DNA of 41,261 bases from a virus. Under the pieces are notes generated by a model, which was not told where the DNA came from, did not search any database, and saw only the letters and a program-made list of their open reading frames with translations. The position numbers and the translations under genes were made by a program. The DNA is taken from positions 1 through 41,261 of the IMG/VR virus record IMGVR_UViG_3300037586_002089; one strand, given 5' to 3'. Below are positions 15,044-41,261 of this stretch, one piece after another. The stretch's first letter is position 1. Each line of letters begins with the position of its first letter.

Positions 15044-15235
15044 ATGGATTACAAATTAACTTCAGTTAAAATACTGAAAGAGTTATACAGAAATTTCAAA
15101 ATGAATACATTGGATGATGAGTTTACTTTACAAAAATTAGTAAATCGTTCAATGGATTTATATTTATTAGATAAGAATTTCAAAGGTCAAATTAAAAATT
15201 GGAATAATTTGAAAGTTAGTGGGAGTAGATTATGA
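15044..15235 (+). CDS. Small ribbon-helix-helix-like DNA-binding protein
   Basis: A 63 aa protein. The N-terminal YKLTSVKILKELYRNFKMN (strand then helix) and FTLQKLVNRSMDLYLLD (second helix) match the ribbon-helix-helix pattern of small phage and plasmid regulators of the Arc/MetJ type. It would act as a dimer on palindromic DNA, possibly on the near-palindromic AT element just upstream. It opens the short module between the replication genes and the sugar island, and its stop overlaps the next start as ATGA. The regulatory role is inferred from fold and position. Confidence 0.68.
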   Translation: MDYKLTSVKILKELYRNFKMNTLDDEFTLQKLVNRSMDLYLLDKNFKGQIKNWNNLKVSGSRL

Positions 15236-15401: not shown

Positions 15402-16823
15402 ATGTCTAAAAAGAAAATTTTATTATTATCAGATGATTTAAGAATGAGTTCTGGCATTGGTACAATGTCAAAAGAGTTTGTATTAGGTACACTACAACAT
15501 TATGATTGGGTTCAGATTGGCGGAGCTATAAAACACCCAGAAGAGGGTAAGGTTGTTGATATGAATGAATCTTGTCGTAATGAAACGGGTATAGAAGATG
15601 CCAGTTTAACGATATATCCTATTAATGGCTATGGTAATTCTGAATTACTTAGAAGTGTTGTACAACGAGAAAAACCTGATGCTATTTTACATTATACAGA
15701 CCCAAGATTTTGGGGTTGGTTATATGAAATGGAACATGAAATTCGACAAGAAATACCGATTTTTTATTATAATATATGGGATGATTGGCCAGCACCACAG
15801 TATAATCAATGGTTTTATGAGTCATGTGATGTAATTATGAATATTTCTAAACAGACTTATGCTATTGTAAAAGATGTTTGGACTAAACATCCACCCGAAG
15901 ATTGGCAAACTACTTATTTACCACATGGTGTAAGTACTAAATACTTTTATCCTATAAGTGTTTTTGATGACGAATATAAAAGAGTTGAAAGTATGAGACA
16001 ACAACTTACAGATGACAATGTTGAATTTATTCTTTTTTATAATAATAGAAATATTAGAAGAAAAATGCCAGGAGATATTATTTTAGCGTTTAAAGTATTT
16101 TGTGATATGTTATCGAAAGAAGAAGCTAAAAAATGTGCTTTGTTAATGCATACTCAACCACGAGATGAAAATGGTACAGATTTACCGGCAGTAGCTAAAG
16201 CAATGTGTCCAGATTTAAAAGTTTATTTTAGTGATAAAAAGTTAGAACCTCATCAATTGAATCATTTATATAATATGGCTGATGTAACTATTAACATAGC
16301 TTCTAATGAAGGATTTGGTTTAGGTACTTGTGAGTCTTTAATGGCTGGAACACCTATTATTGTAAATGTTACAGGTGGATTACAAGACCAGTGTGGATTT
16401 AAATTAGTAAATTGGGCTCCAGATGGTTCAGGTCATACATTAGGAAAATATTTAACTGAAAAAGATTATTTAGAAATAAAATCATTACATGACGATAGGA
16501 AGTGGAAAGACAATAAAGATTTAACTTGGGGTGAATGGGTAAAACCAGTATGGCCTTCTAATAGAGCTTTAGTGGGTTCAATACCAACACCTTATATTTT
16601 CGATGATAGATGTAGATTTGATGATGTGGCAGTTCTTATTAAAGAGTGGTACGATATGGGTTCAGATAAACGTCGAGAATGCGGTGTGAAGGGACATGAA
16701 TTTGTTAATAGTGATGATGCAATGATGACAAGTGAAGCTATGTGTCAAAATTTTATTGCCCACATGGATAAAGGATTTGAAATGTGGAAACCAAGAAAAC
16801 GTTATAGTATGTTTAAGGCGTAG
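15402..16823 (+). CDS. Glycosyltransferase, GT-B fold (GT4-like)
   Basis: A 473 aa predicted retaining glycosyltransferase. The N-terminal domain starts ILLLSDDLRMSSGIGTMSKEFV, the acceptor-side Rossmann start with a glycine-rich loop. The C-terminal domain has the donor-binding EGFGLGTCESLMAGTP at residues 303-318, with the two acidic residues (E303, E311) of GT4 enzymes. A TNIA-type strand precedes it (ADVTINIASNEG). No signal peptide or membrane segment, so it is cytosolic. It is the first enzyme of the sugar island, with GAGG at about 15393-15396 as ribosome binding site, and is followed 8 bases later by a second GT-B gene. Donor and acceptor unknown. Confidence 0.87.
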   Translation: MSKKKILLLSDDLRMSSGIGTMSKEFVLGTLQHYDWVQIGGAIKHPEEGKVVDMNESCRNETGIEDASLTIYPINGYGNSELLRSVVQREKPDAILHYTDPRFWGWLYEMEHEIRQEIPIFYYNIWDDWPAPQYNQWFYESCDVIMNISKQTYAIVKDVWTKHPPEDWQTTYLPHGVSTKYFYPISVFDDEYKRVESMRQQLTDDNVEFILFYNNRNIRRKMPGDIILAFKVFCDMLSKEEAKKCALLMHTQPRDENGTDLPAVAKAMCPDLKVYFSDKKLEPHQLNHLYNMADVTINIASNEGFGLGTCESLMAGTPIIVNVTGGLQDQCGFKLVNWAPDGSGHTLGKYLTEKDYLEIKSLHDDRKWKDNKDLTWGEWVKPVWPSNRALVGSIPTPYIFDDRCRFDDVAVLIKEWYDMGSDKRRECGVKGHEFVNSDDAMMTSEAMCQNFIAHMDKGFEMWKPRKRYSMFKA

Positions 16824-16831
16824 GAGTTATA

Positions 16832-18160
16832 ATGAGTAAACCAGTATGTTTAGTAACAGCACCAGTTGCTACAAGAAGTGGATATGGTGCACACAGTAGA
16901 GATATATGTAGAGCATTAATAGAGTTAGATAGATATGATGTAAAAATCTGGCCAGTCCGTTGGGGAAGTTGTTCTATGAACGCTTTGCATGAAGATGATC
17001 CTAATGATAAAATTATTATTGATAGAATGTTACAAGAACCTACTTTATCAAAACAACCAGAGTTACATTTTCATATAGTAATACCAAATGAGTTTCAACA
17101 AATGGGAAAATATAATATTGGTGTTACAGCTGGATTAGAAAAAACAGTATGTCCACCCCAATGGATTGAAGGTATGAATAGAATGGATATGAATATAGTA
17201 CCTTCAAATTTTGTGAAAGAAGTAATGACCAGCATTGGTTTTGATATAGCAGATGATAAAACTAAAGAGGCAAAAGGACATTTAAAAGTTGAAAAACCAA
17301 TTGAAGTTTTATTTGAAGGTGTAGATACTACTATTTTTAAAAAAACTAAAGAATTTACACAAGATTTAGTTACTGAATTAAAACAAGTAGAAGAACCTTT
17401 TAATTTTCTATATGTAGGACATTGGTTGCAGGGTGGTTTAGGGGAAGATAGAAAAGATACAGGTATGTTACTGAAAGTTTTTCTTGAAACATTTAAAAAT
17501 AAGAAAAAGAAACCTGGACTTATTATGAAAACAAGTGGTGCAACAGTTTCAGTACTTGATAGAGAAGATATATTAAAGAAAATAACTGATATAAAAGAAA
17601 CAATAAAAGGTGATTTACCAAATGTTTATTTATTGCACGGTGATTTAACAGATGATGAAATGAATGGGTTATATAACCATCCAAAAGTTAAAGCACACGT
17701 AACGTTAACTCACGGAGAAGGATATGGTAGACCTTTACTTGAAGCTAGTATAAGTGGAAAACCAGTTATTGCTTCAAATTGGAGTGGACATTTAGATTTT
17801 TTATCTAAAGATAATGCTATTTTACTTGGAGGTGGTTTAGATGAAGTACCGAAGAGAGCATTTCCTGATGATATGTATGCAGAAAGTTCACAATGGTTTA
17901 CTGTAAATTATCCAGAGGCATCAGTTGTAATGAAAAATGTATATGATAATTATAAAAAGTATACTCTTAATGCAAATAAACTTTCAAAGATAAATAAATC
18001 TAAATTTTCATTACAAGCAATGACAAAAGAACTTGGAAAAATGTTAGATAAATACGTTCCAGAGTTTCCAGAAGAAGTTGAACTCAAGTTACCAAAATTA
18101 AAGAAAGTAGGTTCAACTCAACAACCTAAAATAAAATTACCAAAATTAAAGAAGGTTTAA
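16832..18160 (+). CDS. Glycosyltransferase, GT-B fold (GT4-like), with C-terminal lysine repeats
   Basis: A 442 aa predicted glycosyltransferase. The N-terminus VCLVTAPVATRSGYGAHSRDICRAL is the acceptor-domain start, and THGEGYGRPLLEASISGKPVIAS is the donor-binding motif of GT4. An FLYVGHWLQGGLGEDRKDTGMLL segment starts the C-terminal domain. The last 26 residues contain two copies of KLPKLKKV separated by GSTQQPKI, a basic repeat absent from ordinary GT4 enzymes and possibly used for binding membrane, nucleic acid or partner. The gene follows another GT-B gene and likely acts in the same glycan assembly. Donor and acceptor unknown. Confidence 0.86.
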   Translation: MSKPVCLVTAPVATRSGYGAHSRDICRALIELDRYDVKIWPVRWGSCSMNALHEDDPNDKIIIDRMLQEPTLSKQPELHFHIVIPNEFQQMGKYNIGVTAGLEKTVCPPQWIEGMNRMDMNIVPSNFVKEVMTSIGFDIADDKTKEAKGHLKVEKPIEVLFEGVDTTIFKKTKEFTQDLVTELKQVEEPFNFLYVGHWLQGGLGEDRKDTGMLLKVFLETFKNKKKKPGLIMKTSGATVSVLDREDILKKITDIKETIKGDLPNVYLLHGDLTDDEMNGLYNHPKVKAHVTLTHGEGYGRPLLEASISGKPVIASNWSGHLDFLSKDNAILLGGGLDEVPKRAFPDDMYAESSQWFTVNYPEASVVMKNVYDNYKKYTLNANKLSKINKSKFSLQAMTKELGKMLDKYVPEFPEEVELKLPKLKKVGSTQQPKIKLPKLKKV

Positions 18161-18163
18161 ATT

Positions 18164-18376: not shown

Positions 18377-18378
18377 AA

Positions 18379-18828
18379 ATGGAAAGAGTTATAGATTGTC
18401 CAGTATGTTACGATACTGATAATTGTTTTGAAGATATACAAGAAAATTATAGTTCATATTTATGTTTTCATTGTGGGTTTATGAGTGATTCAAGATATGA
18501 GATTAGTAGTTTACAATTAGTAGAAAATTTAAAAAAATCACCAAGATTAGTTCAGAAGTTAAAATTTGAAGATAAACATAGAAATATAGTGTGGTTTCCA
18601 TCAGTAATTAATATGGGTGAATTAGGAATGATATTTCCAGAAGGAACACCTGAGGAATATGTTTGGAAATATGCAAAAGTTGTTGATATTCCTAAAGAAG
18701 AACAACATAAATATGATAATTATGATAAGAGACTTGAAGTTGAAAATGCGAAAGAGTATGGTCAATATGAGTTTTTAGAAGCGTGTAAAGAAATGGGAAT
18801 AACAAGAGATTTAAAACAGAATGCCTAA
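18379..18828 (+). CDS. Zinc-ribbon-containing unknown protein
   Basis: A 149 aa protein with an N-terminal four-cysteine ribbon: C7/C10 (CPVC) and C29/C32 (CFHC). The rest contains NIVWFPSVINMGELGMIFPEGTPEEYVWKYAKVV, which looks like a compact conserved domain, then a charged helical C-terminus (VENAKEYGQYEFLEACKEMGI). Likely a phage-specific conserved protein; I do not recognise a function. It overlaps the next gene by 8 bases and appears in an operon with glycosyltransferases, although nothing in it points to sugar chemistry. Confidence 0.68.
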   Translation: MERVIDCPVCYDTDNCFEDIQENYSSYLCFHCGFMSDSRYEISSLQLVENLKKSPRLVQKLKFEDKHRNIVWFPSVINMGELGMIFPEGTPEEYVWKYAKVVDIPKEEQHKYDNYDKRLEVENAKEYGQYEFLEACKEMGITRDLKQNA

Positions 18829-19303
18829 ACAAATATATACTTGGAGTAAAGTGAGAGCAGGAGATATAGTATCTTTTAGATATAAAGGAAAAGGTACTGT
18901 AGGATATTTAAATACAGTTCTTGTGTTGAATCCGAGAATGCCATATATAAGAAAAGATAAAACCAAAACTTTTCATTTAATAGGATTAAAATTAGAAAGT
19001 AGAGGTAATATACCTACAATTAGAAATAAACCAAAACTTGTTGAACTTTTAGAAAGAATTGGCACTGTTCAAATTATAAGTGAAGATGGTATTTATAGAG
19101 TTGAAATACCAGGAGTTGGACCACGAGGAGTTAGAAAAGCAACTTATAATAAATTAAAACAACGTATTGGAAGATATTCAGTATATAGAACTTATGATTA
19201 TAAAGAGGCTAGAAAATCACAAGTATTTTTAGAGCCAATCGTTTTACCAAAAGAATTTAAAGAGGTTTTAAGTGAAGATATCCTACGCAATAACAGTATG
19301 TAG
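18821..19303 (+). CDS. Unknown basic beta-rich protein
   Basis: A 160 aa basic protein. The N-terminal half (YTWSKVRAGDIVSFRYKGKGTVGYLNTVLVLNPRMPY, then TFHLIGLKLESRG) looks like a small beta-barrel, SH3/KOW-like by pattern. Later GIYRVEIPGVGPRGVRKATY precedes a Lys/Arg-rich helix. Similar proteins occur in T4-like marine phages as conserved hypotheticals; nucleic-acid binding is plausible from the charge but not shown. It overlaps the upstream gene by 8 bases and the downstream glycosyltransferase by 32 bases. Confidence 0.62.
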   Translation: MPKQIYTWSKVRAGDIVSFRYKGKGTVGYLNTVLVLNPRMPYIRKDKTKTFHLIGLKLESRGNIPTIRNKPKLVELLERIGTVQIISEDGIYRVEIPGVGPRGVRKATYNKLKQRIGRYSVYRTYDYKEARKSQVFLEPIVLPKEFKEVLSEDILRNNSM

Positions 19304-19898
19304 TGAGTTAGAAGAAATACAAAGGTTACTTACATTTCTATTAAAATATAAAAGAAGTGAAGATGAAATAGTAGTAACTTTTGATCACAAGAATGGTACT
19401 CAAGACGTAGAAAAATATCTTAGAAGCCAATCAACAAATAATAATTTTAGTTGGCATACACCTCAACCATCATTCGATAAAGATTTTTCTAAATTAAAAA
19501 ATTATACTAAATCAATGTGTAATGGTGATTATATATTTCACCTTGACGCTGATGAATACCCACATGAAATATTAATGGAACAGTTACCAAGTGTAATTGA
19601 AACTAATGAGGTAGATTTAATTTGGGTACCAAGAGTAAATACAGTAGAAGGTCTTACAGAAGAATGGGCTAGTAAGTGGGGTTGGAGAGTTTCAGATAAA
19701 GGTTGGGTAAACTATCCTGATTATCAGGCTCGTGTTTTCAAAAACATATCAGAAATTAAATGGATAAAACCTGTACATGAAGTTATTACAGGTCATAAAA
19801 CATTAGCTCATTTACCACCAGTAGAAGAATTATCTTTATATCATCCCAAAACAATAGAAAAACAAGTTAAACAAAATGAGTTATACAGTAGCATATGA
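19272..19898 (+). CDS. Glycosyltransferase family 2-like
   Basis: A 208 aa GT-A fold transferase. It begins KISYAITVCSELEEIQRLLTFLLKY, the nucleotide-binding start of GT2 enzymes, and carries the metal-binding HLDADEYP (DxD). A later VHEVITG segment resembles the WaaE/KdtX-type LPS glycosyltransferases. GTG 19272 is the start, with AGAGG at 19261-19265 six bases upstream; this causes a 32-base overlap with the preceding gene. It is short for the family, and no membrane segment is seen. Sugar donor and acceptor unknown. Confidence 0.82.
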   Translation: MKISYAITVCSELEEIQRLLTFLLKYKRSEDEIVVTFDHKNGTQDVEKYLRSQSTNNNFSWHTPQPSFDKDFSKLKNYTKSMCNGDYIFHLDADEYPHEILMEQLPSVIETNEVDLIWVPRVNTVEGLTEEWASKWGWRVSDKGWVNYPDYQARVFKNISEIKWIKPVHEVITGHKTLAHLPPVEELSLYHPKTIEKQVKQNELYSSI

Positions 19899-20635
19899 AA
19901 AATGTTTTAATATATAATATAGTTGAAGATAAAAAGAGGTATGATAATAAACTTTTATTTAATTACTTTAGAGCTCAAGTTGATAATAGTTTAAGACTTG
20001 GTTGGAATAAAGAAGATATAATTATAGGTACTAATTTTGATTTCGAACACGAAGGTGTAAAGAATATAGAACTTAAAAATGTATGTACAACAAATATATT
20101 TAATAATAAATGGTATGGTATATTAGAATTAATGGAAGGTGGTTATTTAGAAGATGATTTTTGGTTTCACGATCAAGATTCTTGGCAAGTAAATAAAGTA
20201 ACGTTTCCTGAGTTTGATGGTGAGATTGGAGGATGTACATATGTTTATACACCTGAATGGAATACTTGTTCAATGTTTTTAAAACAAACATCTACGCAAG
20301 TTGTTAATTATGTAGTTGATTTTATGGAACTTAATAAAGAATCTGATTTTTATAGTGATGAAAATTATATATCAATTTTAAGAAATAATAGTGCTATAAC
20401 AACTTTATTGACAACACTTAATAACAAATATAATGTTGGATTAACACATATGGAACAAAGATATGAAGCTGCTGATAAACCTGTATGTTCATTAGGATTT
20501 CAACCACACGTTCAAAATTCTTGGGATGTTTTTGTAGATGGAAAAAATGATTTAAATATTAAATTAGTTGATGAATTATTATTAGATATATTTAAGAAAT
20601 ATAAATTAACACCAGAGAATATTAATGAAGGATAA
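19895..20635 (+). CDS. Putative glycosyltransferase (GT-A-like)
   Basis: A 246 aa protein. It begins NVLIYNIVEDKKRYDNKLLFNYFRAQVDNSLRLGW and has EDDFWFHDQDSWQVN, in which the D-x-D-like HDQDSW falls where GT-A enzymes bind the metal-nucleotide. Sequence similarity to a named family is not obvious to me, so the call rests on the motif and on the surrounding transferase genes. Overlaps the preceding gene as ATGA and the next by 11 bases. Confidence 0.55.
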   Translation: MKNVLIYNIVEDKKRYDNKLLFNYFRAQVDNSLRLGWNKEDIIIGTNFDFEHEGVKNIELKNVCTTNIFNNKWYGILELMEGGYLEDDFWFHDQDSWQVNKVTFPEFDGEIGGCTYVYTPEWNTCSMFLKQTSTQVVNYVVDFMELNKESDFYSDENYISILRNNSAITTLLTTLNNKYNVGLTHMEQRYEAADKPVCSLGFQPHVQNSWDVFVDGKNDLNIKLVDELLLDIFKKYKLTPENINEG

Positions 20636-21653
20636 AGTTATAATATTCGGACCGTGGTGTGGTGAATTTAGTTATGAGTTAAGTTGGTGGAATCCAGGTA
20701 TAAGAAAAATAAGAAAAGAAAAGTATAAAGATTATTACGCAGTACATATTGGATATAGAGGTCGAAGAGCAATGTACAAAGATTTTATAGAAGACTATGT
20801 ATCATACCCAAAAGAACTTGAGGAGACATTAAAATTTCCAGCGGCCGGAGGACAACACGTAATTGATGTAGGTGAAGTAGTACCTGAAAACTTAAAAGAA
20901 TTTATGTATAGAGTAGCGTCACGGTATCAGTATAAAAAACATTATGTCGGTGGAGGATCTGAAGAAATTTTATTATATAATGTAGACCCCCAAATGTTTG
21001 TAGGTGGTAGACATATTCATGACGAAGAACCAGACGGTGATTATATAAATTATGAAGTTGATTCAGAAATGTATAATGAAATTAAAACTGAAATAAAAAA
21101 TTATTTTTCAAATGGTAGAGATACAATCGCACTTATGGCTAGAATTAGAGATAGAAATAGAGGTGAGAATACAGGTGGATGTTATCTAAATTGGAAACCA
21201 GAAAGTTGGGAAATATTTTTAGATAGAGTTATAAATGAATTGGAAACAAATATAGTTGTTATAAGTCTTTCGACGAGCGGAGCTTCGGGTGGGGCTATGA
21301 GTTTTGAAGATACAGAGTTGTATAAAAATAATAAAGAAAATATAATGACAATAAATTTTGATGATGATGATGATTCGTTAGATAGACAATTAGCATTATT
21401 AAAGGCTACTAAATGTAGTATTTATGGAGCAAGTGGTTCAGCAGTACTACCATTTTTTGTAAAGACACCAACTTTTACTCAACAAACAGCAGAAGAAGGG
21501 TTTAGATTGAAGTATAAATGGGAAAGAGATTTAACAGATAATTTAAAAAATATAAAAATATTTGATAAATATCATAGTGGAGAAGAAGTATATAATTCAC
21601 CACCGTATGAGTTATTTGAAGAGTTTAAAAATTTTTATAGGAGTTTACAATGA
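20625..21653 (+). CDS. Putative GT-B-like glycosyltransferase
   Basis: A 342 aa protein starting VIIFGPWCGEFSYELSWWNPGIRKIRKEKYKDYYAVHIGY, a start seen in surface-polysaccharide cluster proteins. The C-terminal half has IALMARIRDRNRGENTGGCYLNW and then INVVISLSTSG-like and KATKCSIYGASGSAVLPFFVKTPTF segments, the pattern of a GT-B donor domain related to GT9/fucosyltransferase-type proteins, where ASGS/A would contact the donor. The family is not firmly identified. ATG 20625 overlaps the previous stop by 11 bases. Confidence 0.55.
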   Translation: MKDKVIIFGPWCGEFSYELSWWNPGIRKIRKEKYKDYYAVHIGYRGRRAMYKDFIEDYVSYPKELEETLKFPAAGGQHVIDVGEVVPENLKEFMYRVASRYQYKKHYVGGGSEEILLYNVDPQMFVGGRHIHDEEPDGDYINYEVDSEMYNEIKTEIKNYFSNGRDTIALMARIRDRNRGENTGGCYLNWKPESWEIFLDRVINELETNIVVISLSTSGASGGAMSFEDTELYKNNKENIMTINFDDDDDSLDRQLALLKATKCSIYGASGSAVLPFFVKTPTFTQQTAEEGFRLKYKWERDLTDNLKNIKIFDKYHSGEEVYNSPPYELFEEFKNFYRSLQ

Positions 21654-21871
21654 CAGGTCTTAAATCAAGTGTAGCACAAAAAGGTAGATATGTTACTCAA
21701 ATAATACATTTTATAGGGGGTCATTGTAAAACAATACACGGAGTAGATACAGAAACTATTGAACAGGGCCAATTTACTAAATTTCATACAAAAGATAATG
21801 TAATGGTTTTAATTCACGACCCAAATGTTTTAATGATTGAAGTTTTTGAAGAGAATGAAAATGAAGATTAG
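21650..21871 (+). CDS. Unknown small protein
   Basis: A 73 aa protein predicted to be mostly beta strand (YVTQIIHFIGGHCKTIHGVD, then NVMVLIHDPNVLMIEVFEE), with an acidic C-terminus ENENED. No known motif, signal peptide or membrane segment. The start overlaps the previous stop as ATGA and the end overlaps the aminotransferase start by 11 bases, which supports a real, translated gene in the sugar operon. Its pattern could suit a small binding or accessory protein, but no function is assigned. Confidence 0.6.
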   Translation: MTGLKSSVAQKGRYVTQIIHFIGGHCKTIHGVDTETIEQGQFTKFHTKDNVMVLIHDPNVLMIEVFEENENED

Positions 21872-22970
21872 AGAAACTATGTTACCAGTATTAGGACCTA
21901 AAGGTGGTGAAGAAGAAGTACAGGCTTTACGTGAAGTTATAGAAAGTGGCTGGTGGGGAAAAGGACCAAAGGTACAGGAGTTTGAAGAGAAGTTCGCTGA
22001 GATGGTAGGACATAAATATGCTGTAGCAGTTACAAGTAATTCACACGGACAAGATTTAGTAATGAAAGCTATGGGTTGGAAGGGTATAGATGTAATTAAT
22101 CCAGCTATATCTTTTATAGCAACTGCTATGATACCTTTATGGAATAATTTTACTTCTAATATAGTTGATGTAAAACGAGACACGTTATGTATTGATCCTG
22201 AAGATGTTGAAAGATATAAAAAACCAAATAGTGAGTTAATGATAGCTGTAGATGAAGCTGGGGTTTTTGCTGATTATAAAGAGTTAAGAAAAGTATTTGA
22301 TGGATTTATACTTCAAGATACCGCTCACAGTTGTTATACACCAGGGGCTGGGTTAGATGGAGATTGTGCAGTATGGTCTTTTCAAGCAGTAAAGACAATG
22401 CCTGCAGGAGACGGTGGAATGATTACTACAGATGATAAACAGTTAGCTGATAGATGTAGAGAAATGACGTGGTTTGGTGTATCTTCAACTTGGAGTAGGT
22501 CAAAAAAGGGGTTAGACGGTAAACCAGGTTATTCGTGGGATTATAAAGTAAATGTTTTGGGGTACAAATATTATATGATAGATATTATTGCTGCTATATG
22601 TTTAGAACAGATGAAAAAATTACCAGAACATTTAAAATTTAGAAGACACGTACAGTCAAGATATAATAAAGAATTAAATCCGTTAGTACAAAGACCACCA
22701 CATTCTGAAACTGTTCAATATTATGTAACCAGAGTACCAGCTAATCATAGAGATATTTTAATAGAGTATTTGGCTGATAAAAATATTCATACTTCTGTTC
22801 ATTTCAAACCGTTATATAAGTATGATATTTTAAAACATGATAGAGAATATCCAGTTTCTGATACTGAGTGGTTGAAATTTTTGACATTACCTTGTAATAA
22901 TAGAATGAAGGAAGAAGATATTGATTATGTAATTTATTGGGTTAACAAGTATTTTGAAGAGAATTTTTAG
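21861..22970 (+). CDS. DegT/DnrJ/EryC1-family PLP aminotransferase
   Basis: A 369 aa sugar aminotransferase (type I fold), which adds an amino group to a 4-keto or 3-keto NDP-sugar using PLP. The PLP lysine is K178 in SFQAVKTMPAGDGG, and D153 in LQDTAHS contacts the cofactor ring. The N-terminal MLPVLGPKGGEEEVQALREVIESGWWGKG is the family's standard start. ATG 21861 is chosen: GAAGAG (21848-21853) lies 7 bases upstream. No epimerase or dehydratase is adjacent, so its substrate sugar is unclear; its second family member at 35850 sits in a clearer pathway. The stop overlaps the next GTG (TAGTG). Confidence 0.9.
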   Translation: MKIRETMLPVLGPKGGEEEVQALREVIESGWWGKGPKVQEFEEKFAEMVGHKYAVAVTSNSHGQDLVMKAMGWKGIDVINPAISFIATAMIPLWNNFTSNIVDVKRDTLCIDPEDVERYKKPNSELMIAVDEAGVFADYKELRKVFDGFILQDTAHSCYTPGAGLDGDCAVWSFQAVKTMPAGDGGMITTDDKQLADRCREMTWFGVSSTWSRSKKGLDGKPGYSWDYKVNVLGYKYYMIDIIAAICLEQMKKLPEHLKFRRHVQSRYNKELNPLVQRPPHSETVQYYVTRVPANHRDILIEYLADKNIHTSVHFKPLYKYDILKHDREYPVSDTEWLKFLTLPCNNRMKEEDIDYVIYWVNKYFEENF

Positions 22971-26637: not shown

Positions 26638-26649
26638 AGGGGAGTTATT

Positions 26650-33704: not shown

Positions 33705-33705
33705 T

Positions 33706-34179
33706 ATGAAAGAAAAAGAATATGAAGATGCTTTTATAACTAAAGAGTTGACAATTCATTCAGATGATAGAGGATTTTTAATGGAAATATTGAGAATGGA
33801 TGATCCTATTTATAAAAAATTCGGTCAAGTATATATCACTTGCTGCGAACCAGGTTTTGTAAAAGCTTGGCATTATCATAGAATAAAAACAGATTATTTT
33901 ACTTGTATTAATGGTACAGCTCGAATTGTTGTATTTGATGATAGAGATGGTTCACCGACATACGGTGAATTAAAAGAATATATTGTAAACAAAGATAATC
34001 CAGTATTAGTAAAAATACCAACAGGTTGTTATCACGGTTTTGAAGCTGTAGGTAAAGAGGATGCTTATATTATTAGTATTACAACTGAACCGTATCATCA
34101 TGAAGAACTCGATGAATACAGAATACCGTTTAATGATGAATTAATACCATTTGAATGGGATGGTAAGACAGGATTTTAA
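33706..34179 (+). CDS. dTDP-4-keto-sugar 3,5-epimerase-like cupin (RmlC/EvaD-like)
   Basis: A 157 aa cupin related to dTDP-4-dehydrorhamnose 3,5-epimerase. ITKELTIHSDDRGFLMEI is the N-terminal start with the conserved DDRG, KAWHYHRIKTDYFTCINGTARIVVFD carries the catalytic His region, and IPTGCYHGFEAVG, then PFNDELIPFEWDG, are the later conserved parts (nDp-I-p-W). In the pathway it would invert C3 and/or C5 of a 4-keto-6-deoxy NDP-sugar. It heads the four-gene deoxy-amino-sugar group. Weak ribosome binding site GGAGA about 9 bases upstream. Confidence 0.87.
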   Translation: MKEKEYEDAFITKELTIHSDDRGFLMEILRMDDPIYKKFGQVYITCCEPGFVKAWHYHRIKTDYFTCINGTARIVVFDDRDGSPTYGELKEYIVNKDNPVLVKIPTGCYHGFEAVGKEDAYIISITTEPYHHEELDEYRIPFNDELIPFEWDGKTGF

Positions 34180-35076
34180 ATGACTTCTTATGAAGGATTA
34201 AATATATTAATAACAGGTAGTACAGGTTATATAGGTTCAACTTTAGTAAAGTCGTTTAATTCCATTGATTGTAATTTAATTATTTCTACCGGTGATGTAT
34301 CTAAAAAAGAAACTTGGAATGATATTATAAAAGATGATATTGATATTATTTTTCATTTAGCAGCTGTAGAAGTAGAACATGAAACACCAGAAAGAGATTT
34401 AAATGTAAATTCAGTATCAGTTTTACATATGTTACAAACTTGTGTTGAGAAAAGATGTAATCCAAAAATTATTTTTGCAAGTTCAACTAATGTATTTGGA
34501 ATAGTAAATGAAGATAAAGTAAATGAAAACACAAAAGCAAAACCAGCAGCAGAATGGTCAGCACACAAACTACTTTCAGAACATTATTTAAAAATATATA
34601 ACGAAAAGTTTGGATTGAAAAGTATTATTTTACGATTACCAAATATCTACGGTCCTGTTCGAGATAAAGATATAAATAGAAAAACGTCAGGTTCATTGAT
34701 TGCCAGAGTCATAAAATATGGAATTGAACATAAACAATTAAAGTTATTTAAGAATAGAAATTGTTATAGAGATTATGTTTATATTGATGATATAGTTAAA
34801 GCTTTTATAAAGACAGGTTTAGCTAATGATGATATTTTTGATGGTAGATTTTTTGTAGTAGGAAGTAATAAATTAACAACTATATCAGATATGTGGAACA
34901 CTATAGCCTCTGTACTAACAGATGTTACAGTCACGGAAGATGATACTATTGATTTGAATCCCATTGAAATGCGTAGTTATGTAGGAGATTATAGGTTATT
35001 AGAAGAAGTAATTGGTTGGCAACCAAGAGTTAATTTACAAGATGGAGTTAAGTTAACAGTTGAGAGTTTAAAATGA
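34180..35076 (+). CDS. NAD-dependent NDP-sugar epimerase/reductase
   Basis: A 298 aa extended SDR. NILITGSTGYIGSTLVKSF is the NAD(P)-binding TGxxGxxG and IIFASSTNVFG the catalytic Ser/Thr region. RLPNIYGPV and RDYVYIDDIVKAF are typical substrate-binding motifs. The active-site YxxxK is WSAHK here: W126 replaces the Tyr while K130 is kept. That change should weaken ordinary dehydrogenase/reductase chemistry. The gene is placed as the 4-keto-reductase or epimerase step of the deoxy-amino-sugar group. It overlaps the dehydratase start by 4 bases. Confidence 0.85.
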   Translation: MTSYEGLNILITGSTGYIGSTLVKSFNSIDCNLIISTGDVSKKETWNDIIKDDIDIIFHLAAVEVEHETPERDLNVNSVSVLHMLQTCVEKRCNPKIIFASSTNVFGIVNEDKVNENTKAKPAAEWSAHKLLSEHYLKIYNEKFGLKSIILRLPNIYGPVRDKDINRKTSGSLIARVIKYGIEHKQLKLFKNRNCYRDYVYIDDIVKAFIKTGLANDDIFDGRFFVVGSNKLTTISDMWNTIASVLTDVTVTEDDTIDLNPIEMRSYVGDYRLLEEVIGWQPRVNLQDGVKLTVESLK

Positions 35077-35840
35077 AACAAGATAAATATTTAAAACAGT
35101 TAAATAAATATAAAAAACATATTTTAGGTTTAAATATGACAAGTAAAATTGATGAAAATCAATTAGAGTTTCATTTTGAAACTTTAAAAGATTGGTCAAC
35201 TTTTCATACATTTGAAGATATAGAAAAATGGTATCAAAGTGTACTTGATAAAAAAGAAATGGTTATTGAAGAAATATCTTTGAAAGACTGTAGTGAATGG
35301 ATTTTTGATGGAGATATTATATATCATACAAGTGGTGAATTTTATTCAGTTCAAGCACTTAGAGTACACACTAAAATTAGAGAAGCAAAAAGAGGATGGG
35401 ACCAACCCCTTTTTAAACAAGTTGGTTTAGATGGTGGTATACTCGGGATTGTTAGAAAAAGATTTGAAGGAATACCACATTATTTATTGGAAGCCAAATC
35501 AGAACCGGGTAATGTAAATTTAGTTCAAATTAGTCCAACATTACAAGCTACATTCAGTAATATAAACGCAGCTCATTTAGGTAATGTTCCAAATTATTTA
35601 AATATTTTTCAGAATGCGGAAAAAGTAGGTAAAGTTTTATTGAAGAAATGGCAATCTGAAGACGGTGGTAGATTTTATAGTAAACGAAATTTGAATATGA
35701 TAGTAGAAGTAGAAGAAGAGTATAATATTACTTTTAAAAATGATAATTTTATTTGGATGAGTATGTATCAAATAAAACAATGTTTAGAAAAAGAATCTTG
35801 GGTAGCTAATTCAGTTAGAACTATCATATCACACGTATAG
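35073..35840 (+). CDS. NDP-hexose 2,3-dehydratase, single-repeat
   Basis: A 255 aa member of the NDP-hexose 2,3-dehydratase family (EvaA/TylX3 group), which removes the C2 hydroxyl of NDP-4-keto-6-deoxyglucose. The signature lies at HTSGEFYSVQALRVHTK, RGWDQPLFKQ, and AKSEPGNVN (141-149) with QISPTLQAT (152-160). The known antibiotic-pathway enzymes have two such repeats in about 470 aa; this gene encodes only one. It would be active as a dimer, if at all. It overlaps the previous gene by ATGA and precedes the aminotransferase by 9 bases. Confidence 0.93.
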   Translation: MKQDKYLKQLNKYKKHILGLNMTSKIDENQLEFHFETLKDWSTFHTFEDIEKWYQSVLDKKEMVIEEISLKDCSEWIFDGDIIYHTSGEFYSVQALRVHTKIREAKRGWDQPLFKQVGLDGGILGIVRKRFEGIPHYLLEAKSEPGNVNLVQISPTLQATFSNINAAHLGNVPNYLNIFQNAEKVGKVLLKKWQSEDGGRFYSKRNLNMIVEVEEEYNITFKNDNFIWMSMYQIKQCLEKESWVANSVRTIISHV

Positions 35841-35849
35841 GAGACAATT

Positions 35850-36980
35850 ATGATAAAAGTATGGGATTATAAAAAAGAATATGAAGCATTAAGAGAAGAA
35901 ATTTTAGATGCAGTAGATAACGTGTTTAGTGGAGGAACATTGGTTTTTGGTCCAAGAGTAGAAGAGTTTGAAGAAAAATTTTCTAAATATTGTGATTCAA
36001 AGTTTGGTATAGGAGTAGGTAATTGTACAGATGCATTGTACATTGCTTTAAAAGCTATGAATATCGGTACAGGAGATGAAGTTATTACTGTATCAAACAC
36101 AGCAGTTCCTACTGTAACAGCTATTGTAATGACTGGAGCAACACCTGTATTTGTTGATGTTGATAGATATTTTTTAATGGATGTAGTAGAATTACAGAGT
36201 GCAATACATAATGAAACTAAAGCAATTATACCAGTCCATTTGTTTGGACAAATGTGTGATATGGGTATTATTATGAATACTGCTCACGAGAATAATTTAC
36301 GAGTTATTGAAGATTGTGCACAATCACACGGTGCTACTTATAACGGTAGAAAAGCAGGTTCAATAGGTGATGTTGGTTGTTTTTCTTTTTATCCAACTAA
36401 AATATTTGGTGCTTATGGTGATGGTGGTTTTATTACAACTAATGATGAGAAGTTATATGATAAGATGAATCGTATGAGATTTTTTGGAATGGAAAGAAAA
36501 AAAATGTCATCAGGTCATTGGAATGGTAAATATTATGCATTAGAACATGGACCAGATACTTGTAATTCTAGGTTAGATGAAGTACATGCAGCAATACTAC
36601 TTAAAAAACTTAATTATATAGATGAATGGATAGATAGAAGAAGACAGATTGCAGAAAGATATAATGAAGAATTATCAGATACAGAATTAGTTTTACCTGA
36701 AGAATGTTACTACAATAGACATGGATATTATATATATGTGGTTGCTCATCCTGATAGGGATAGAATAATGAAAGATTTAACTGAAAGAGACATACATTTA
36801 AATATAAGTTACCCGTGGCCAGTTCATACTATGATAGGATATGAATATTTAGGTTGGAAAGATGGAGATTTACCAATAACTGAAAAATTAGCTAATGAAA
36901 TATTTTCATTACCAATGTATCCTACATTAACTGATGATGAACAAACAGAAGTTATTAAAGTTTTGAAAGAGATTGTATGA
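35850..36980 (+). CDS. DegT-family NDP-sugar aminotransferase
   Basis: A 376 aa PLP enzyme. The lysine is K184 in SFYPTKIFGAYGDGG, with D155 in IEDCAQSHGA contacting PLP. The start (LVFGPRVEEFEEKFSKYCDSKFGIGVGNCTDALYIALKA) and the ATPVFVDVD strand are those of sugar 3-aminotransferases (QdtB/FdtB/EvaB type). Following a 2,3-dehydratase, it would put an amino group on C3 to give a 2,3,6-trideoxy-3-amino sugar. GGAG about 10 bases before the ATG. Its stop overlaps the next gene as ATGA. Confidence 0.93.
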   Translation: MIKVWDYKKEYEALREEILDAVDNVFSGGTLVFGPRVEEFEEKFSKYCDSKFGIGVGNCTDALYIALKAMNIGTGDEVITVSNTAVPTVTAIVMTGATPVFVDVDRYFLMDVVELQSAIHNETKAIIPVHLFGQMCDMGIIMNTAHENNLRVIEDCAQSHGATYNGRKAGSIGDVGCFSFYPTKIFGAYGDGGFITTNDEKLYDKMNRMRFFGMERKKMSSGHWNGKYYALEHGPDTCNSRLDEVHAAILLKKLNYIDEWIDRRRQIAERYNEELSDTELVLPEECYYNRHGYYIYVVAHPDRDRIMKDLTERDIHLNISYPWPVHTMIGYEYLGWKDGDLPITEKLANEIFSLPMYPTLTDDEQTEVIKVLKEIV

Positions 36981-37888
36981 AATTAGCTGTAGTAATTAAT
37001 GGGTGGCACTTTCCACTAAAATTTTATCAACAGGTAAGAACACAAAAAATACCGAAAGATTGGGAAGTTGATTATTTTTGTGTTTCTCATAGAGAACCTG
37101 AAGTATCTGATATAGAGAAACAAAAATTTTTATCTCAATTAAGTAATGGTACTTTAGAAAAAATAGATAAAATTTTATACGAAAAAATAGCTACTGTTAA
37201 TTATCTTGAAGAAAATGGTTGGCATTATATATTAGAACCAAATACTTGTGGTGATTGGGCTATTACAAATCAATGGTTAGAAAAAAATAACTATAAGAAT
37301 TATGATATGCTTTTATTTTCACATGATGATAATTTCGTTTTTAACGATAATTTGTTTATTGATGTATTAGATAATAAAATTGAAACTTTATTTAGAAATG
37401 ATTATTCTATGAATGATTTACCAGAATTTAAAAACGCAGGACCGGGTGATTATTCAGAAGTTAAAAATGATGGTGAGTGGTTAATATTATCAAATGGTAT
37501 AGTAAATATGACTGGTAAAGTTCGTGGGTCATTTGATTTCTTTAAACCAGAAATAATTGAAAAAATGGGTGGTAAATTTGATATAGATAATATTGAATTA
37601 GATAGAACAGGTGAAACTGACAATGCAGGTATAGGTTATTATGGTACTACGTACCCAACAGGTGGTCTTAGTATAAAAGATTGGGAAAAACCAGTTCAAA
37701 ATTTTTATGGGTTCATGGTAAGAAATGGTTATTTAGATACAATTAGATATATTTCACCAGCATATAGAGTTAGTAAATATTGTTTAGAAGGTGAACGAGG
37801 TTTATTATCAAATAGAGCTACACCTCAAGGTTCATTATATCATTCAACAGTAGAAAGATTATTAGAAGAAGGGTTGTTAAATGTTTAG
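36977..37888 (+). CDS. Putative glycosyltransferase (GT-A-like)
   Basis: A 303 aa protein without a family I recognise. KLAVVINGWHFPLKFYQQVR is a Rossmann-like start, and MLLFSHDDNFVFNDN supplies an acidic DDN pair in the position of the GT-A metal site; MNDLPEFKNAGPGDYSE and SIKDWEKPVQNFYGFMVRNGYLD are further conserved-looking parts. The context (just after the amino-sugar genes) suggests it attaches that sugar to its acceptor. Overlaps previous gene as ATGA and the next by 8 bases. Uncertain. Confidence 0.55.
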   Translation: MKLAVVINGWHFPLKFYQQVRTQKIPKDWEVDYFCVSHREPEVSDIEKQKFLSQLSNGTLEKIDKILYEKIATVNYLEENGWHYILEPNTCGDWAITNQWLEKNNYKNYDMLLFSHDDNFVFNDNLFIDVLDNKIETLFRNDYSMNDLPEFKNAGPGDYSEVKNDGEWLILSNGIVNMTGKVRGSFDFFKPEIIEKMGGKFDIDNIELDRTGETDNAGIGYYGTTYPTGGLSIKDWEKPVQNFYGFMVRNGYLDTIRYISPAYRVSKYCLEGERGLLSNRATPQGSLYHSTVERLLEEGLLNV

Positions 37889-38624
37889 TTATAACGAATT
37901 CAAAAATATTATCAATTTAATTAAAGTAAATCTACCTATTGTTGATTTTGCTGATGTAAATGGTGATACAACATCATTTTGTGTACTTAGACATGATATA
38001 GAATTTTCAGTTGATAGAGCTCTTAAAATGGCAAGAATAGAAGCTGATGAATTAGGTGTAGTTTCTACTTATACTGTTCAACTAAGAAATAATACATACA
38101 ACGCATTATCAGAAAAAAATATTAAGGCTGTTCAAGAAATTCGTGATTTGGGACATAAGATAGGATTACATCAAAATCCACCAAATTTAGGAGCTGAAAA
38201 AATAACAAAAAATATTTTGAAAGATATTGAAGTGCTAGAACATTATTATGGATTTAAAATAGATAGATTTGCATTTCATAGACCTAATGTAAATCCACAA
38301 TTATTATCTTGGTATGTGAAAATTGAAGAGTTGATTAATTGTAATGGTGAATTGTTTTTTGAATATGTAGAAGGACCTCTACCAGAAGATTTAAATGTAA
38401 CTTATTTATCAGATTCAAATCATCAATGGAAATTCGGACACCCATTGAAATTAAATTTTAATAAAGTTAAAAAACTTCATGTATTAATGCATCCATATTC
38501 ATGGTCAGAATATGGATATTCAAATTATGGTAATTTTGTTTCGTTAACACAGGAGAGAAACGAAGAACTATTAGATTCAATGAATAGTGAAACAAGTACT
38601 TTTCCACAGGAGTTGTTAAATTGA
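37881..38624 (+). CDS. Polysaccharide deacetylase-like protein
   Basis: A 247 aa protein with the (beta/alpha) deacetylase pattern: FCVLRHDIEFSVDRALKMA is motif 1 (HD), followed by LGHKIGLHQNPP (the GxH motif) and FAFHRPNVNP, and LHVLMHPYSWSEYG as the C-terminal His motif. It would remove an N- or O-acetyl group from a sugar. No signal peptide, so it acts on cytosolic precursors. Overlaps the previous gene by 8 bases; the next gene begins at TTG overlapping its stop. Confidence 0.78.
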   Translation: MFSYNEFKNIINLIKVNLPIVDFADVNGDTTSFCVLRHDIEFSVDRALKMARIEADELGVVSTYTVQLRNNTYNALSEKNIKAVQEIRDLGHKIGLHQNPPNLGAEKITKNILKDIEVLEHYYGFKIDRFAFHRPNVNPQLLSWYVKIEELINCNGELFFEYVEGPLPEDLNVTYLSDSNHQWKFGHPLKLNFNKVKKLHVLMHPYSWSEYGYSNYGNFVSLTQERNEELLDSMNSETSTFPQELLN

Positions 38625-39988
38625 AAAAAAATGTTGTTTGGTGGCCCGCAGTAGTAAATACAGAACATACAGAAAAGTATGGGGGTTATGAATATTTTCA
38701 ATATTCAAGAAACACGTGGGAATACTGGTGTGAACGAAATGACTGTTTATTTGTACCGTTTACTGAACCAGTAGAAAAAGATTTATTTAAGTATAGAGTA
38801 AATTGGCAAAAGGCTATTTTCTTATTCGATGAACTTGAAAGAAGAAATATAGAATATGATCAGGTAGCACTGGTTGATAGTTCTTTTATGATTAGATGGG
38901 ATACACCTAACTTTTTCGAGCTAACAGATAGAAGATTCACTGCGTGGAGAGATATGGATAATATGAGGTGGATATATGAAAGTATTCAAGGATATAAAGA
39001 TATATTCGGAGGTTTTGAATTGGATATGACTAAGTACGTAAACTCTGGATTTATGGTGTTTAATGAAAAACATAAAGATTTATTCAATAACTTTAAACAG
39101 TTTTATATAGATAACATAGAAGAATTTGTTAAACTACAAGATGAAGTTGTAAAGAAAGGTACAGAACAAACACCTATGAATTATTGGTTACAGACGAATA
39201 ACATTGATATAAATACAGATTTACCTTTACCATTTAAATTAACACATTTACAAAGGAAGGAATTATTTAATTTTAACTGGCAACTTGATGAAGATAAGAC
39301 ACCTTTTTTTATAAAGTATGGATATAACTGTAGCTTTAATGGCATACCTAAAGATAATAGAACTAAGTTAATGCAACAAACATGGGATATGATAAAAAGT
39401 AGGTACAATTATGATGAAATAAAATATGATAAAATTTTAGATTTAATGCCACATAAAGATACAGCAAAATACACTACGAGTAGAAAATTTAAGAGAGATA
39501 TTTTAAAAACTTTTACTCATAAGAAATACAAAGATTTAACAATGATAGAATTAGGTAGTTGTCAGGGTAATTCAACTGTAGTTTATAGTAATGTATTTAA
39601 AAAAGTATATGGAGTTGAAAAAGATAGTTGGAATATAGAACAAGCTGAAAAGAAATGTAAAGATAGAGATAATGTAGAATTTATACAAAAAGACATTTAT
39701 ACAGAAGAATGGGATTTTCCACAGGTAGATGTTGTGATGATAGATGCGGGTCATACATACGAACACGTGAAACACGATATACCAAAAGTTATGGATTATT
39801 TTAATAAACCAATTATCATTATGGATGATTATGGTAATCCGAAAGTTGAAATTCAAAAAGCTATTTATGAAATTGTTACTACAGGTGCTGTATCATTAGA
39901 TACGTTTATAGGTGAGAAACGAGGTTTTAAAACAGCAGCTGGTTGGACTATGAATGACAGAGAAGGTTGTATCTTAAATTTAAAATGA
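38621..39988 (+). CDS. Glycosyltransferase-methyltransferase fusion
   Basis: A 455 aa two-domain protein. The N-terminal half (to about residue 270) is a GT-A-like domain, with YDQVALVDSSFMIRWDTPNFFEL, where the D-x-S stands for the DxD, and NSGFMVFNEKH. The C-terminal half is a class I SAM methyltransferase: MIELGSCQGNSTVVYSNVF (motif I), VVMIDAGHTYEHVKHDI and IIIMDDYGNP. It should transfer a sugar and methylate it, or work on the same acceptor. The start is TTG 38621 with AGGAG about 8 bases upstream, overlapping the preceding stop (TTGA). The N-terminal half is related to the partial gene at 40898. Confidence 0.82.
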   Translation: MKKNVVWWPAVVNTEHTEKYGGYEYFQYSRNTWEYWCERNDCLFVPFTEPVEKDLFKYRVNWQKAIFLFDELERRNIEYDQVALVDSSFMIRWDTPNFFELTDRRFTAWRDMDNMRWIYESIQGYKDIFGGFELDMTKYVNSGFMVFNEKHKDLFNNFKQFYIDNIEEFVKLQDEVVKKGTEQTPMNYWLQTNNIDINTDLPLPFKLTHLQRKELFNFNWQLDEDKTPFFIKYGYNCSFNGIPKDNRTKLMQQTWDMIKSRYNYDEIKYDKILDLMPHKDTAKYTTSRKFKRDILKTFTHKKYKDLTMIELGSCQGNSTVVYSNVFKKVYGVEKDSWNIEQAEKKCKDRDNVEFIQKDIYTEEWDFPQVDVVMIDAGHTYEHVKHDIPKVMDYFNKPIIIMDDYGNPKVEIQKAIYEIVTTGAVSLDTFIGEKRGFKTAAGWTMNDREGCILNLK

Positions 39989-40908
39989 GTAATATAAAAA
40001 GTCATATTAATTCTACTAAATTTTTACTAAAAGATATGTGTTATTCTGTTGATAACAACTTTATTTATATGAAACCAGCGAAAACAGCTGGAACTACAAT
40101 TTATAGACGTATGTTTCGATTAGACGTAGTTAAAGAAGGTACAGCTGGTGAAGGTGCACGATTACCACCATATAAACAGGAACCTAAAAAACAAATTGTA
40201 AAGGGTATGGGATTAGTTCCAGATTGTAGTTGTCAAAAAGACGATAAAGTAAAGTTTGATACTTGGTGGAGTAACTTGACAAATGAAGAAATTAAAAATG
40301 ATTATTTTAAATTTGTTTTTGTTAGAAATCCGTTTGATAGATTAGTTTCTGCGTACAGCCATCTGCGAGAAGATATAACATGGTCTTCTTATAGGAAAAC
40401 ACCCATGTATAGTGGTGTCCGTGACCCGCGGGTACCGGGCGTAGGGAGTGACGCTGACGAATATTTAATTAAAACACGTGCTAATAATTTTAATAAAATC
40501 GCATCTAAAGCGCTATCATTACAAGAAAGGAAGATGTGGCAAACACGTGATAGTCGTTATTATAGTTCACCAGATTTTAAGACATTTGTAAAAAGAAATT
40601 TACTTGATAGTAAAGGTTATCCTTCAAATTCACATTGGTTGAATCAAAGTTATTATGCAGAAGTAGATGAAGAACTATTTGTAGATTTTATAGGAAAGTT
40701 TGAAAATTTAAATAAAGATTTTAAAGTGTTGTGTGATAAATTAAATTTGGAGTATGAGTTATTAAAAATTCATGGTTATACTGGATTACCAACAGTTCGT
40801 TTTGGTGGAAGTCATAGTAATTATAAAACTTATTATGATGATGAAACAATAGAATTAGTTTCAAATGTATATCGTAGAGATTTGGAGTTATTTGATTATG
40901 AATACTAA
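39985..40908 (+). CDS. Sulfotransferase family 2-like protein
   Basis: A 307 aa protein (ATG 39985, ATGA overlap). YMKPAKTAGTTIYRRMF (from about residue 29) is the 5'-phosphosulfate binding loop (K-x-x-x-T-x-T), and FVFVRNPFDRLVSAYSHL (from about 111) is the 3'-phosphate motif of PAPS-dependent carbohydrate sulfotransferases. GTGACP-like regulatory parts are not seen. It would add a sulfate to a glycan. The region at 40411-40460, encoding SGVRDPRVPGVGSDADEYL, is GC-rich (34 of 50) in an AT-rich genome. The reading frame is intact through it. Confidence 0.87.
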   Translation: MSNIKSHINSTKFLLKDMCYSVDNNFIYMKPAKTAGTTIYRRMFRLDVVKEGTAGEGARLPPYKQEPKKQIVKGMGLVPDCSCQKDDKVKFDTWWSNLTNEEIKNDYFKFVFVRNPFDRLVSAYSHLREDITWSSYRKTPMYSGVRDPRVPGVGSDADEYLIKTRANNFNKIASKALSLQERKMWQTRDSRYYSSPDFKTFVKRNLLDSKGYPSNSHWLNQSYYAEVDEELFVDFIGKFENLNKDFKVLCDKLNLEYELLKIHGYTGLPTVRFGGSHSNYKTYYDDETIELVSNVYRRDLELFDYEY

Positions 40909-41261
40909 GAATTTAGTTTTTATGATGGATATTGATTTAGGTGGTGATGGTAGATATTCAAGTAGTAGAAGATATGCTTACAAGTATTCAATAGATAGTT
41001 GGAAAAGATGGTGTGATAAAAATAATTGTGAGTTATTTGTGTTAAATGATTTAGTTTTGGAAAAAGAGAAAATGGCTATTTGTTGGCAAAGATATTATTT
41101 ATTTGACATATTAGACTCAAATGAAATAGAATATGACCAAGTTTTAATGATTGATGCAGATACAATAGTACATCCAGAGTGTCCTAACTTTTTTGATATG
41201 AGTGAAGGTAAATTATGTGGAGCACAATTTGATGGTAGTTGGGATTGGGTTTTAAGAAGTT
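40898..41261 (+). CDS. Glycosyltransferase, partial (window edge)
   Basis: ATG 40898 overlaps the sulfotransferase stop by 11 bases, with GGAG just upstream. The frame remains open to the right edge, so the gene is cut. The product begins MNTKNLVFMMDIDLGGDG and has YDQVLMIDADTIVHPECPNFFDM, a classic DxD metal site of GT-A transferases. Compared with the N-terminal half of the gene at 38621 (YDQVALVDSSFMIRWDTPNFFEL) it is a paralogue that keeps the DxD. Expected to be a nucleotide-sugar transferase; whether it too carries a methyltransferase domain is out of view. Confidence 0.8.
   Translation, partial: MNTKNLVFMMDIDLGGDGRYSSSRRYAYKYSIDSWKRWCDKNNCELFVLNDLVLEKEKMAICWQRYYLFDILDSNEIEYDQVLMIDADTIVHPECPNFFDMSEGKLCGAQFDGSWDWVLRS

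Follow-up and report, generated by a model that had tools for sequence, protein, structure and literature searches.

The window analysed here, the linear IMG/VR phage record IMGVR_UViG_3300037586_002089 at its full length of 41,261 bases, carries a long island of sugar-related genes behind a T4-like replication block and raises the question of where a phage would place the glycan that such an island specifies. The initial annotation had named virion protein, DNA or host surface; the present analysis favors a protein or a lipid acceptor at the cytosolic face and offers little for DNA. Comparison with relatives shows that the island is a locus with conserved ends and an exchangeable middle, occupying the same place in the genomes of T4-related ocean phages. 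The reading that we consider most probable, although it falls slightly short of an even chance, is that the locus encodes soluble enzymes for the assembly of an oligosaccharide whose backbone is fixed and whose decoration is exchangeable, the acceptor most likely being a virion fiber.

Thirty-three consecutive plus-strand open reading frames (ORFs; at least 70 amino acids (aa); o19–o51) extend from 15,402 to the end of the contig, which interrupts the last ORF, o51, at 41,261. Most neighbors overlap and the biggest intergenic gap is 12 nucleotides, in agreement with the gene number, the single strand and the tight packing described initially; starts were assigned mechanically, and minor overlaps may be erroneous. 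An almost identical contig of a different metagenome (G001, hereafter the twin) extends the island to about 49,580 in window numbering, so that window and twin together span 15,402–49,580 (34.2 kb, 42 ORFs of at least 60 aa). Beyond the window, the twin encodes the complete o51, a methyltransferase, a GNAT protein, a second DegT aminotransferase (at about 44,519; 85% like o28), a Polysacc_synt_2 epimerase, a UDP-glucose-dehydrogenase-like protein, a GT2 glycosyltransferase and then an APS kinase. The T4-like context was confirmed by PHROGs matches to UvsX, a gp32-like SSB, DNA polymerase, clamp and clamp loader. A glycan island is real, but the statement that the great majority of its genes are sugar-related was too strong: Pfam assigns a family above cut-off to 17 of the 33 ORFs (the trio o38, o40 and o41 among them not being sugar-specific), four more have weak matches below cut-off (o20, o33, o36, o51), and 12 have no match (o21, o22, o23, o25, o26, o27, o29, o30, o31, o42, o47, o48). 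PHROGs gave no named function for ten island proteins lacking an assignment, and PDB profile searches of o48, o29, o37, o51 and o31 gave no or weak matches. An FGDGD stretch in o29 may correspond to the one of GT-D enzymes.

A chimeric join of a phage with a bacterial polysaccharide locus near 15.0–15.4 kb, raised with the first description of the island, is rejected and has a practically negligible probability. The G+C profile has no step there, o19 adjoins o18 in all 31 relatives whose sequence continues for 900 bases or more past o18 (among the best 80 of 182 viral stretches matching the polymerase), and two contigs, L002 and L003, each of a different further metagenome, repeat bases 14,901–15,600 without a difference.

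The initial annotation had also asked whether the island is conserved or variable among relatives, and across 19 islands the ends proved conserved and the middle variable. These belong to 19 phages with a readable island: the window plus its twin, 16 metagenomic contigs, Flavobacterium phage immuto and Microcystis phage Mel-JY01. Window genes were sought in the relatives by tblastn, matches covering less than 50% of the query being dropped. Wherever the contig reaches, the shared order is o15 nuclease, o18, o19, o20, o22, o24, cargo and right-anchor GT2, except that o22 was undetected in G024, G041 and Mel-JY01, o18 was undetected in Mel-JY01, and the right anchor of Mel-JY01 is a 25% partial match. 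Between these same genes the island measures 6.3–40.5 kb, lengths that are minima for G003, G013, G021 and G033, whose left ends are truncated at or within o19 (in G033 the right end is truncated as well). Grouping at 35% identity and 70% coverage, with ORFs below 60 aa or overlapping longer ones dropped, sorted the 555 island ORFs into 219 families, 124 of them confined to one island. Two families, o20 and o24, occur in all 19 islands, o19 in 18, the right-anchor GT2 and o51 in 17, a 325-aa family (twin 46542–47519) in 16, o22 and o23 in 14 each, and a 324-aa family (twin 42280–43254) in 13. The glycosyltransferase-like backbone genes are thus kept on the left (o19, o20, o24) and on the right (o51, the 325-aa family, for which a PDB profile search gave one weak glycosyltransferase match at E 0.0052, and the GT2 anchor), and between them the genes for nucleotide sugars, methylation, sulfation and outer sugars turn over. 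At 30% identity and 70% length, none of the other 18 islands has a homologue of o32, o33, o36, o43–o46 or o50; among the best 80 of 166 right-anchor loci, relatives of o45 were found in five (35–38% identity) and of o50 in six, including the contig of the twin. The anchor o19 itself is 46% identical in immuto and 50% in Mel-JY01, and among 50,697 phage records just 10 match it, including four immuto records; DegT enzymes like o46 are found in 92 records. No published description of this locus was found among open papers.

Neutral stuffer DNA that fills a headful-packaged capsid has been raised as an explanation for cyanophage lipopolysaccharide (LPS) genes (PMC3037559, in the portion available). 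For the present island it is the alternative that we rate lowest apart from the chimera: the ratio of nonsynonymous to synonymous substitution rates (dN/dS) between the window and G003 is 0.05–0.36 in 24 of 25 gene pairs, the exception being the 70-aa o21 (1.24), and the same backbone recurs at the same site across phages. The purifying ratios imply that the island genes are maintained and refute stuffer DNA for the shared genes, which are the ones that the comparison covers; the window-only o32, o33, o36, o43–o46 and o50 fall outside it.

Whether the glycan is assembled on a lipid carrier can be judged from the membrane proteins of the island. A Kyte-Doolittle scan of the 555 island ORFs found no hydrophobic segment in 545, one in nine and two in a single antisense ORF, so that no sense ORF has the two or more segments sought for a polytopic flippase or polymerase. 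The families Bac_transf, Polysacc_synt (PF01943) and Glycos_transf_4 matched in none of 20 records, and their controls were positive in 9, 13 and 12 of 14 genomes; these families represent the hallmarks of Wzx/Wzy O-antigen or capsule loci, a PglC-/WecA-type initiating phosphoglycosyltransferase and a flippase. As no family for lipid-carrier initiation, flipping or polymerization was found, the assembly line looks soluble. Two acceptors remain that fit such a line, a cytosolic (virion) protein or the host lipid A-core at the inner face. We prefer the virion for two reasons: phages that infect different hosts share the backbone, and chloroviruses provide a case of a virus-encoded constant core.

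In the mechanism that we propose from gene content, the backbone enzymes would act in the cytosol and assemble an invariant linkage oligosaccharide, and the variable enzymes would make and add unusual outer sugars, one activated by cytidine monophosphate (CMP; o38–o41) and one an EvaA-type aminodeoxyhexose (o43–o46), which would then be methylated, deacetylated and sulfated. The first enzymes may be brought to the acceptor or to a partner by the C-terminal tail of o20, in which a direct repeat encodes KLPKLKKV twice. Among ORFs of at least 100 codons in 4.6 Mb of fetched DNA, in which overlapping loci cause some places to be counted repeatedly, LPKL[KQRE] occurs 100 times, always on o19 or o20 and nowhere else. 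Of 34 distinct complete o19–o20 pairs, 28 have two or three copies in total, four have one strict copy and a variant (LPKLT, LPKLN or LPTLK), and two, those of immuto and Mel-JY01, have no strict copy, immuto having the look-alikes LPTLKK and IPRLKK. One copy lies at the start of o19 in two pairs (L301, L311) and likewise in G036, G037 and G038. The motif looks like a recruitment tag, as it is confined to one enzyme pair, has a variable linker and has a copy that can move between o19 and o20. The basic, hydrophobic tail might also bind membrane.

The acceptor would most likely be a virion protein, the very long Ser/Thr-rich fiber proteins being the foremost candidates, and the variable sugars may act as a phage serotype that alters receptor use or recognition. 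Such proteins are seen in the 164.8-kb relative G022, which is 50–67% identical to the window at seven anchor genes and encodes T4-type structural proteins that lie outside the window itself (portal, major head protein, baseplate wedge and head-tail adaptor). Its fiber-like proteins, of up to 4,583 aa, contain 15.6–24.8% Ser+Thr (24.8% in one of 2,091 aa and 23.0% in that of 4,583 aa); its polymerase, reductase and portal contain 9.9–11.3%. In the same genome, very long fiber-like genes of 1,738–2,091 aa each are arranged in tandem (L285:11829-17969 and L285:555-6608), and include one that encodes an endosialidase-type chaperone domain and one that matches tail spikes repeatedly.

The closest model for this reading is provided by the chlorovirus PBCV-1, whose capsid glycans are described in the available text as virus-encoded, organelle-independent and built on a core conserved in all members (PMC7826918). 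The likeness is in the conserved core enzymes combined with variable decorating enzymes, here known from genes; chloroviruses differ in being eukaryotic algal viruses whose major capsid protein bears N-linked glycans, and no homology is claimed. A more specific form of the virion reading, possible but distinctly less certain, would make the locus a phage counterpart of chlorovirus self-glycosylation, with its own soluble enzymes acting on virion fibers, o19 and o20 steered by their tails and swaps of the middle amounting to serotype change. Should the sugars prove to be on the virion, phages, like bacteria with their surface polysaccharides, would possess serotype-like loci. The anecdotal "LPS cluster" becomes a well-delimited locus, recognizable by its fixed ends in many phages, including the cultured immuto, with which the long-open purpose of marine-phage sugar genes becomes testable in the laboratory.

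Several points weigh against a virion acceptor. The head protein (17.1%) and a sheath-like protein (18.9%) of G022 are also fairly rich in Ser+Thr, Ser/Thr-rich fibers also occur in phages lacking such islands, and 12 of the 33 window genes have no assigned family. The T4 late-promoter motif TATAAATA is not shared among 19 stretches upstream of o19 and is not enriched on the coding strand of G022 (16 plus, 22 minus), counts that say nothing on the timing of expression. Soluble glycosyltransferases could just as well work at the cytosolic face, where they would extend lipid A-core and rely on host export, so that the lack of membrane proteins is compatible with a host-surface product. Moreover, relatives encode outer-membrane proteins, a TonB-dependent receptor and small lipoprotein-like proteins, which point to remodelling of the host envelope in this lineage. 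The chief rival is LPS remodelling, which we regard as a serious possibility, somewhat less probable than the virion reading: host LPS or lipooligosaccharide (or capsule) would be extended or replaced during infection by means of host carrier and export, blocking superinfecting phages or predators, and island turnover would track competition among phages. Besides the outer-membrane proteins of relatives, it is favored by GT8-/GT4-like enzymes and epimerases, which are typical of such loci, and it is the published reading of the P-SSM2 clusters and pelagimyophage islands in the accessible parts of PMC2984593, PMC7029224 and PMC7824862. Against it, no initiating transferase or flippase family was found in the 20 records and no polytopic membrane protein in the 19 islands, and marine contigs and a Flavobacterium phage have the backbone in common, though host LPS cores should differ.

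Glycosylation of phage DNA as a defense against restriction is improbable. In its favor, T4 glucosylates its own DNA, o05 is a DNA methylase and o14 has a PF07659 "nucleotide modification associated" domain. Known DNA glucosylation, however, needs one or two transferases rather than a dozen genes that include deoxysugar, sulfation and deacetylation functions, none of the window ORFs was recognized as a base-hydroxymethylating enzyme, and immuto shares the locus yet has a separate 7-deazaguanine DNA pathway.

The chemistry of the cargo can be outlined from its families. Those above the Pfam cut-off on the sugar-pathway side include DegT (o28 and o46), dTDP sugar isomerase (o43), epimerase (o44) and NDP-hexose 2,3-dehydratase (o45), and o43–o46 are predicted to form an EvaA-type route to a 3-amino-2,3,6-trideoxyhexose. 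The 255-aa o45 has PF03559 homology and matches EvaA (4j7g) at E 1.4e-54; as in the EvaA pathway, it lies beside an epimerase, an NAD-dependent epimerase/dehydratase and a DegT aminotransferase. It differs in having a single PF03559 domain, which aligns with both halves of the two-domain, 471-aa EvaA. No window gene was annotated by name as a glucose-1-phosphate thymidylyltransferase or a 4,6-dehydratase, and the substrate would have to come from host enzymes. The resemblance of o43–o46 to antibiotic deoxysugar genes, and of o45 to EvaA, would also suit a diffusible or cell-bound antibiotic-like glycoside, and a secondary-metabolite role has been proposed for a cyanophage cluster (PMC7824862, in the part available). 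This reading is about as improbable as DNA modification: no polyketide- or peptide-synthase gene is among the annotated window ORFs, and o43–o46 lack homologues (30% identity) in the other 18 islands.

The order o38–o41 is kept in all eight viral loci found with o40, including the twin, and in L109. The nearest solved structures to o40 are a putative aldolase (3dxi) and 4-hydroxy-2-oxovalerate aldolases. The best Foldseek matches of o37 are the Campylobacter Cst-I sialyltransferases 2p56 and 2p2v, although weakly (E 0.04–0.05; predicted local distance difference test (pLDDT) of the model 60.8), and such a fold adjoining o38–o41 would suit a CMP-activated sugar. Within the self-glycosylation reading, and with the same limited confidence, o38–o41 would represent an undescribed route to a CMP-activated sugar using an HMGL-type aldolase. 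The model of o48 (pLDDT 68.8) resembles CE4 polysaccharide deacetylases (best E 1.8e-5, eight chains below 0.001). Above cut-off, the sulfotransferase family of o50 occurs in the window and the twin and in none of the other 18 records, and APS kinase in four of the 20; the kinase after the right anchor of the twin could supply 3'-phosphoadenosine 5'-phosphosulfate to the sulfotransferase o50. PF01755 had no match in the window, a negative that carries no information, its control having matched nowhere.

The initial annotation set the island against the one or two transferases of most T4-like phages; such islands have precedents, however: large LPS clusters of marine T4-like phages are already published, from which this locus differs in place and content. 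According to the accessible portions of the respective papers, P-SSM2 has 24 LPS genes in two clusters (PMC2984593), cyanophage LPS clusters adjoin hli03 or phoH (PMC3037559), and pelagimyophage islands average 44.6 kb and form a host recognition cluster among structural genes, from VrlC to gp14, with tail fibers (PMC7029224). The cyanomyovirus clusters (P-SSM2, S-SSM7) share with the present block a marine T4-like genome and a dense set of sugar-nucleotide and glycosyltransferase genes, whereas the block here follows replication genes and is not near hli03 or phoH. P-SSM2 has no o19 match at E 1e-5, and the cyanobacterial phages among the 10 records matching o19 are Mel-JY01 and, at 25%, S-CBS4. 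The pelagimyophage cluster is likewise a large hypervariable glycosyltransferase island of marine T4-like phages; unlike it, the present island stands after the replication block, no fiber gene was seen in the window, and in G022 the island is more than 30 kb away from the fiber-like genes. Immuto (Immutovirus) preserves the gene order, with homologues of o15, o18, o19, o20, o22, o24 and o27 as well as of the right anchor, but its island is just 10.8 kb with other cargo, and its replication genes differ (a family A DNA polymerase is annotated).

Table 1. Positions of the genes and features in the window and of the receptor genes in relatives.
Feature	Position	Strand	Basis or remark
T4-like replication block: SSB, UvsX-like recombinase, exonuclease, DNA methylase, DnaB-type helicase, ribonucleotide reductase, DNA polymerase, clamp, clamp loader, o15 (PD-(D/E)XK nuclease, 13318-14181), small o18 (15044-15235)	1..15235	+	Pfam/PHROGs; flanks island in relatives
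o19, left-anchor glycosyltransferase	15402..16823	+	Pfam Glycos_transf_1 (GT1)
o20, left-anchor glycosyltransferase	16832..18160	+	weak Pfam match below cut-off
o20 C-terminal tandem motif, KLPKLKKV twice, variable linker	18072..18156	+	direct repeat D1
o21, 70 aa, single hydrophobic segment	18164..18376	+	present in few relatives
o22 and o23, conserved left-anchor proteins	18379..19303	+	no Pfam
o24, left-anchor GT2	19272..19898	+	Pfam
o25, o26, o27, unannotated cargo	19895..21871	+	common to few relatives
o28, DegT/DnrJ/EryC1 aminotransferase	21837..22970	+	Pfam
o29, o30, o31, unannotated cargo	22970..25214	+	no Pfam
o32 (NTP-transferase-like and HAD), o33 (cupin-like), o34 (HAD and NTP_transferase)	25211..28065	+	sugar-phosphate activation
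o35, methyltransferase (Methyltransf_24/CmcI-like); o36, weak RXYLT1_C match	28043..29768	+	Pfam
o37, MptE-like	29768..30493	+	Pfam
o38-o41 cassette: UPF0047/YjbQ, CTP_transf_3 cytidylyltransferase, HMGL-type aldolase, SDR	30490..33251	+	Pfam
o42, start resembles glycerophosphodiesterase (by eye)	33252..33704	+	no Pfam match
o43-o46: 3,5-epimerase-like, NAD-epimerase/dehydratase, single-domain NDP-hexose 2,3-dehydratase, DegT aminotransferase	33706..36980	+	Pfam
o47, unannotated	36977..37888	+	7/19 islands
o48, CE4-type deacetylase fold	37881..38624	+	5/19 islands; fold match
o49, long N-terminal part without assignment, C-terminal methyltransferase	38621..39988	+	9/19 islands
o50, Sulfotransfer_2 sulfotransferase	39967..40908	+	Pfam
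o51, weakly GT8-like, incomplete here	40865..41261	+	270 aa in twin; 17/19 islands
TonB-dependent receptor of relatives	L044:6298-9096		
TonB-dependent receptor of relatives	L054:7045-9807		
TonB-dependent receptor of relatives	L057:3942-6713		
TonB-dependent receptor of relatives	L068:5148-7928		
TonB-dependent receptor of relatives	L077:7060-9849		

A host of the Fibrobacteres–Chlorobi–Bacteroidetes (FCB) group is suggested by Flavobacterium phage immuto, Rhodothermus phage RM378 and the SusC-like receptor of relatives; against it, the nearest polymerase is that of Microcystis phage Mel-JY01 (45.5%). A contig titled as a Pacearchaeota metagenome-assembled genome (L109:1-13414), the only one from a scan of genome contigs for o40, has the o38–o41 cassette and dense genes on one strand, and is probably a misbinned phage contig that gives no clue to donor or host.

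The TonB-dependent receptor is absent from the window and lies, full-length (about 925 aa), between ribonucleotide reductase (o07) and DNA polymerase (o08) in 10 of the 58 polymerase loci having both genes. It matches CarboxypepD_reg and Plug in Pfam and SusC-like proteins in PDB, and among five copies identity to the first is 68–84%. It is encoded in 297 viral stretches; among the best 80, o07 or o08 is alongside in 74, and 67 copies end in Phe, a residue typical of the C-terminus of outer-membrane barrels. It was found in no isolated, named phage, the 13 matching records being all fecal or uncultured with at most 31% identity, and no published phage-encoded TonB-dependent receptor was found among open papers; a phage-encoded outer-membrane receptor merits separate study. 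The small protein directly after the right end of the island (L096:13362-13886, similar in G003, G005, G012 and G017) has no Pfam match and, by eye, a lipoprotein-like signal. In five of the 58 loci, the o07–o08 gap holds a glutamine synthetase gene recognized by Pfam (L005:2645-3664; L063 from about 8967), and the ribonucleotide reductase of another relative has, by eye, an intein-like insertion (L037:6874 onward). Upstream of the replication block, a glycosyl hydrolase family 6 protein (E 7.6e-46; L105:13502-14335, minus strand, and G012) is encoded near NagB-like and PIG-L-like genes.

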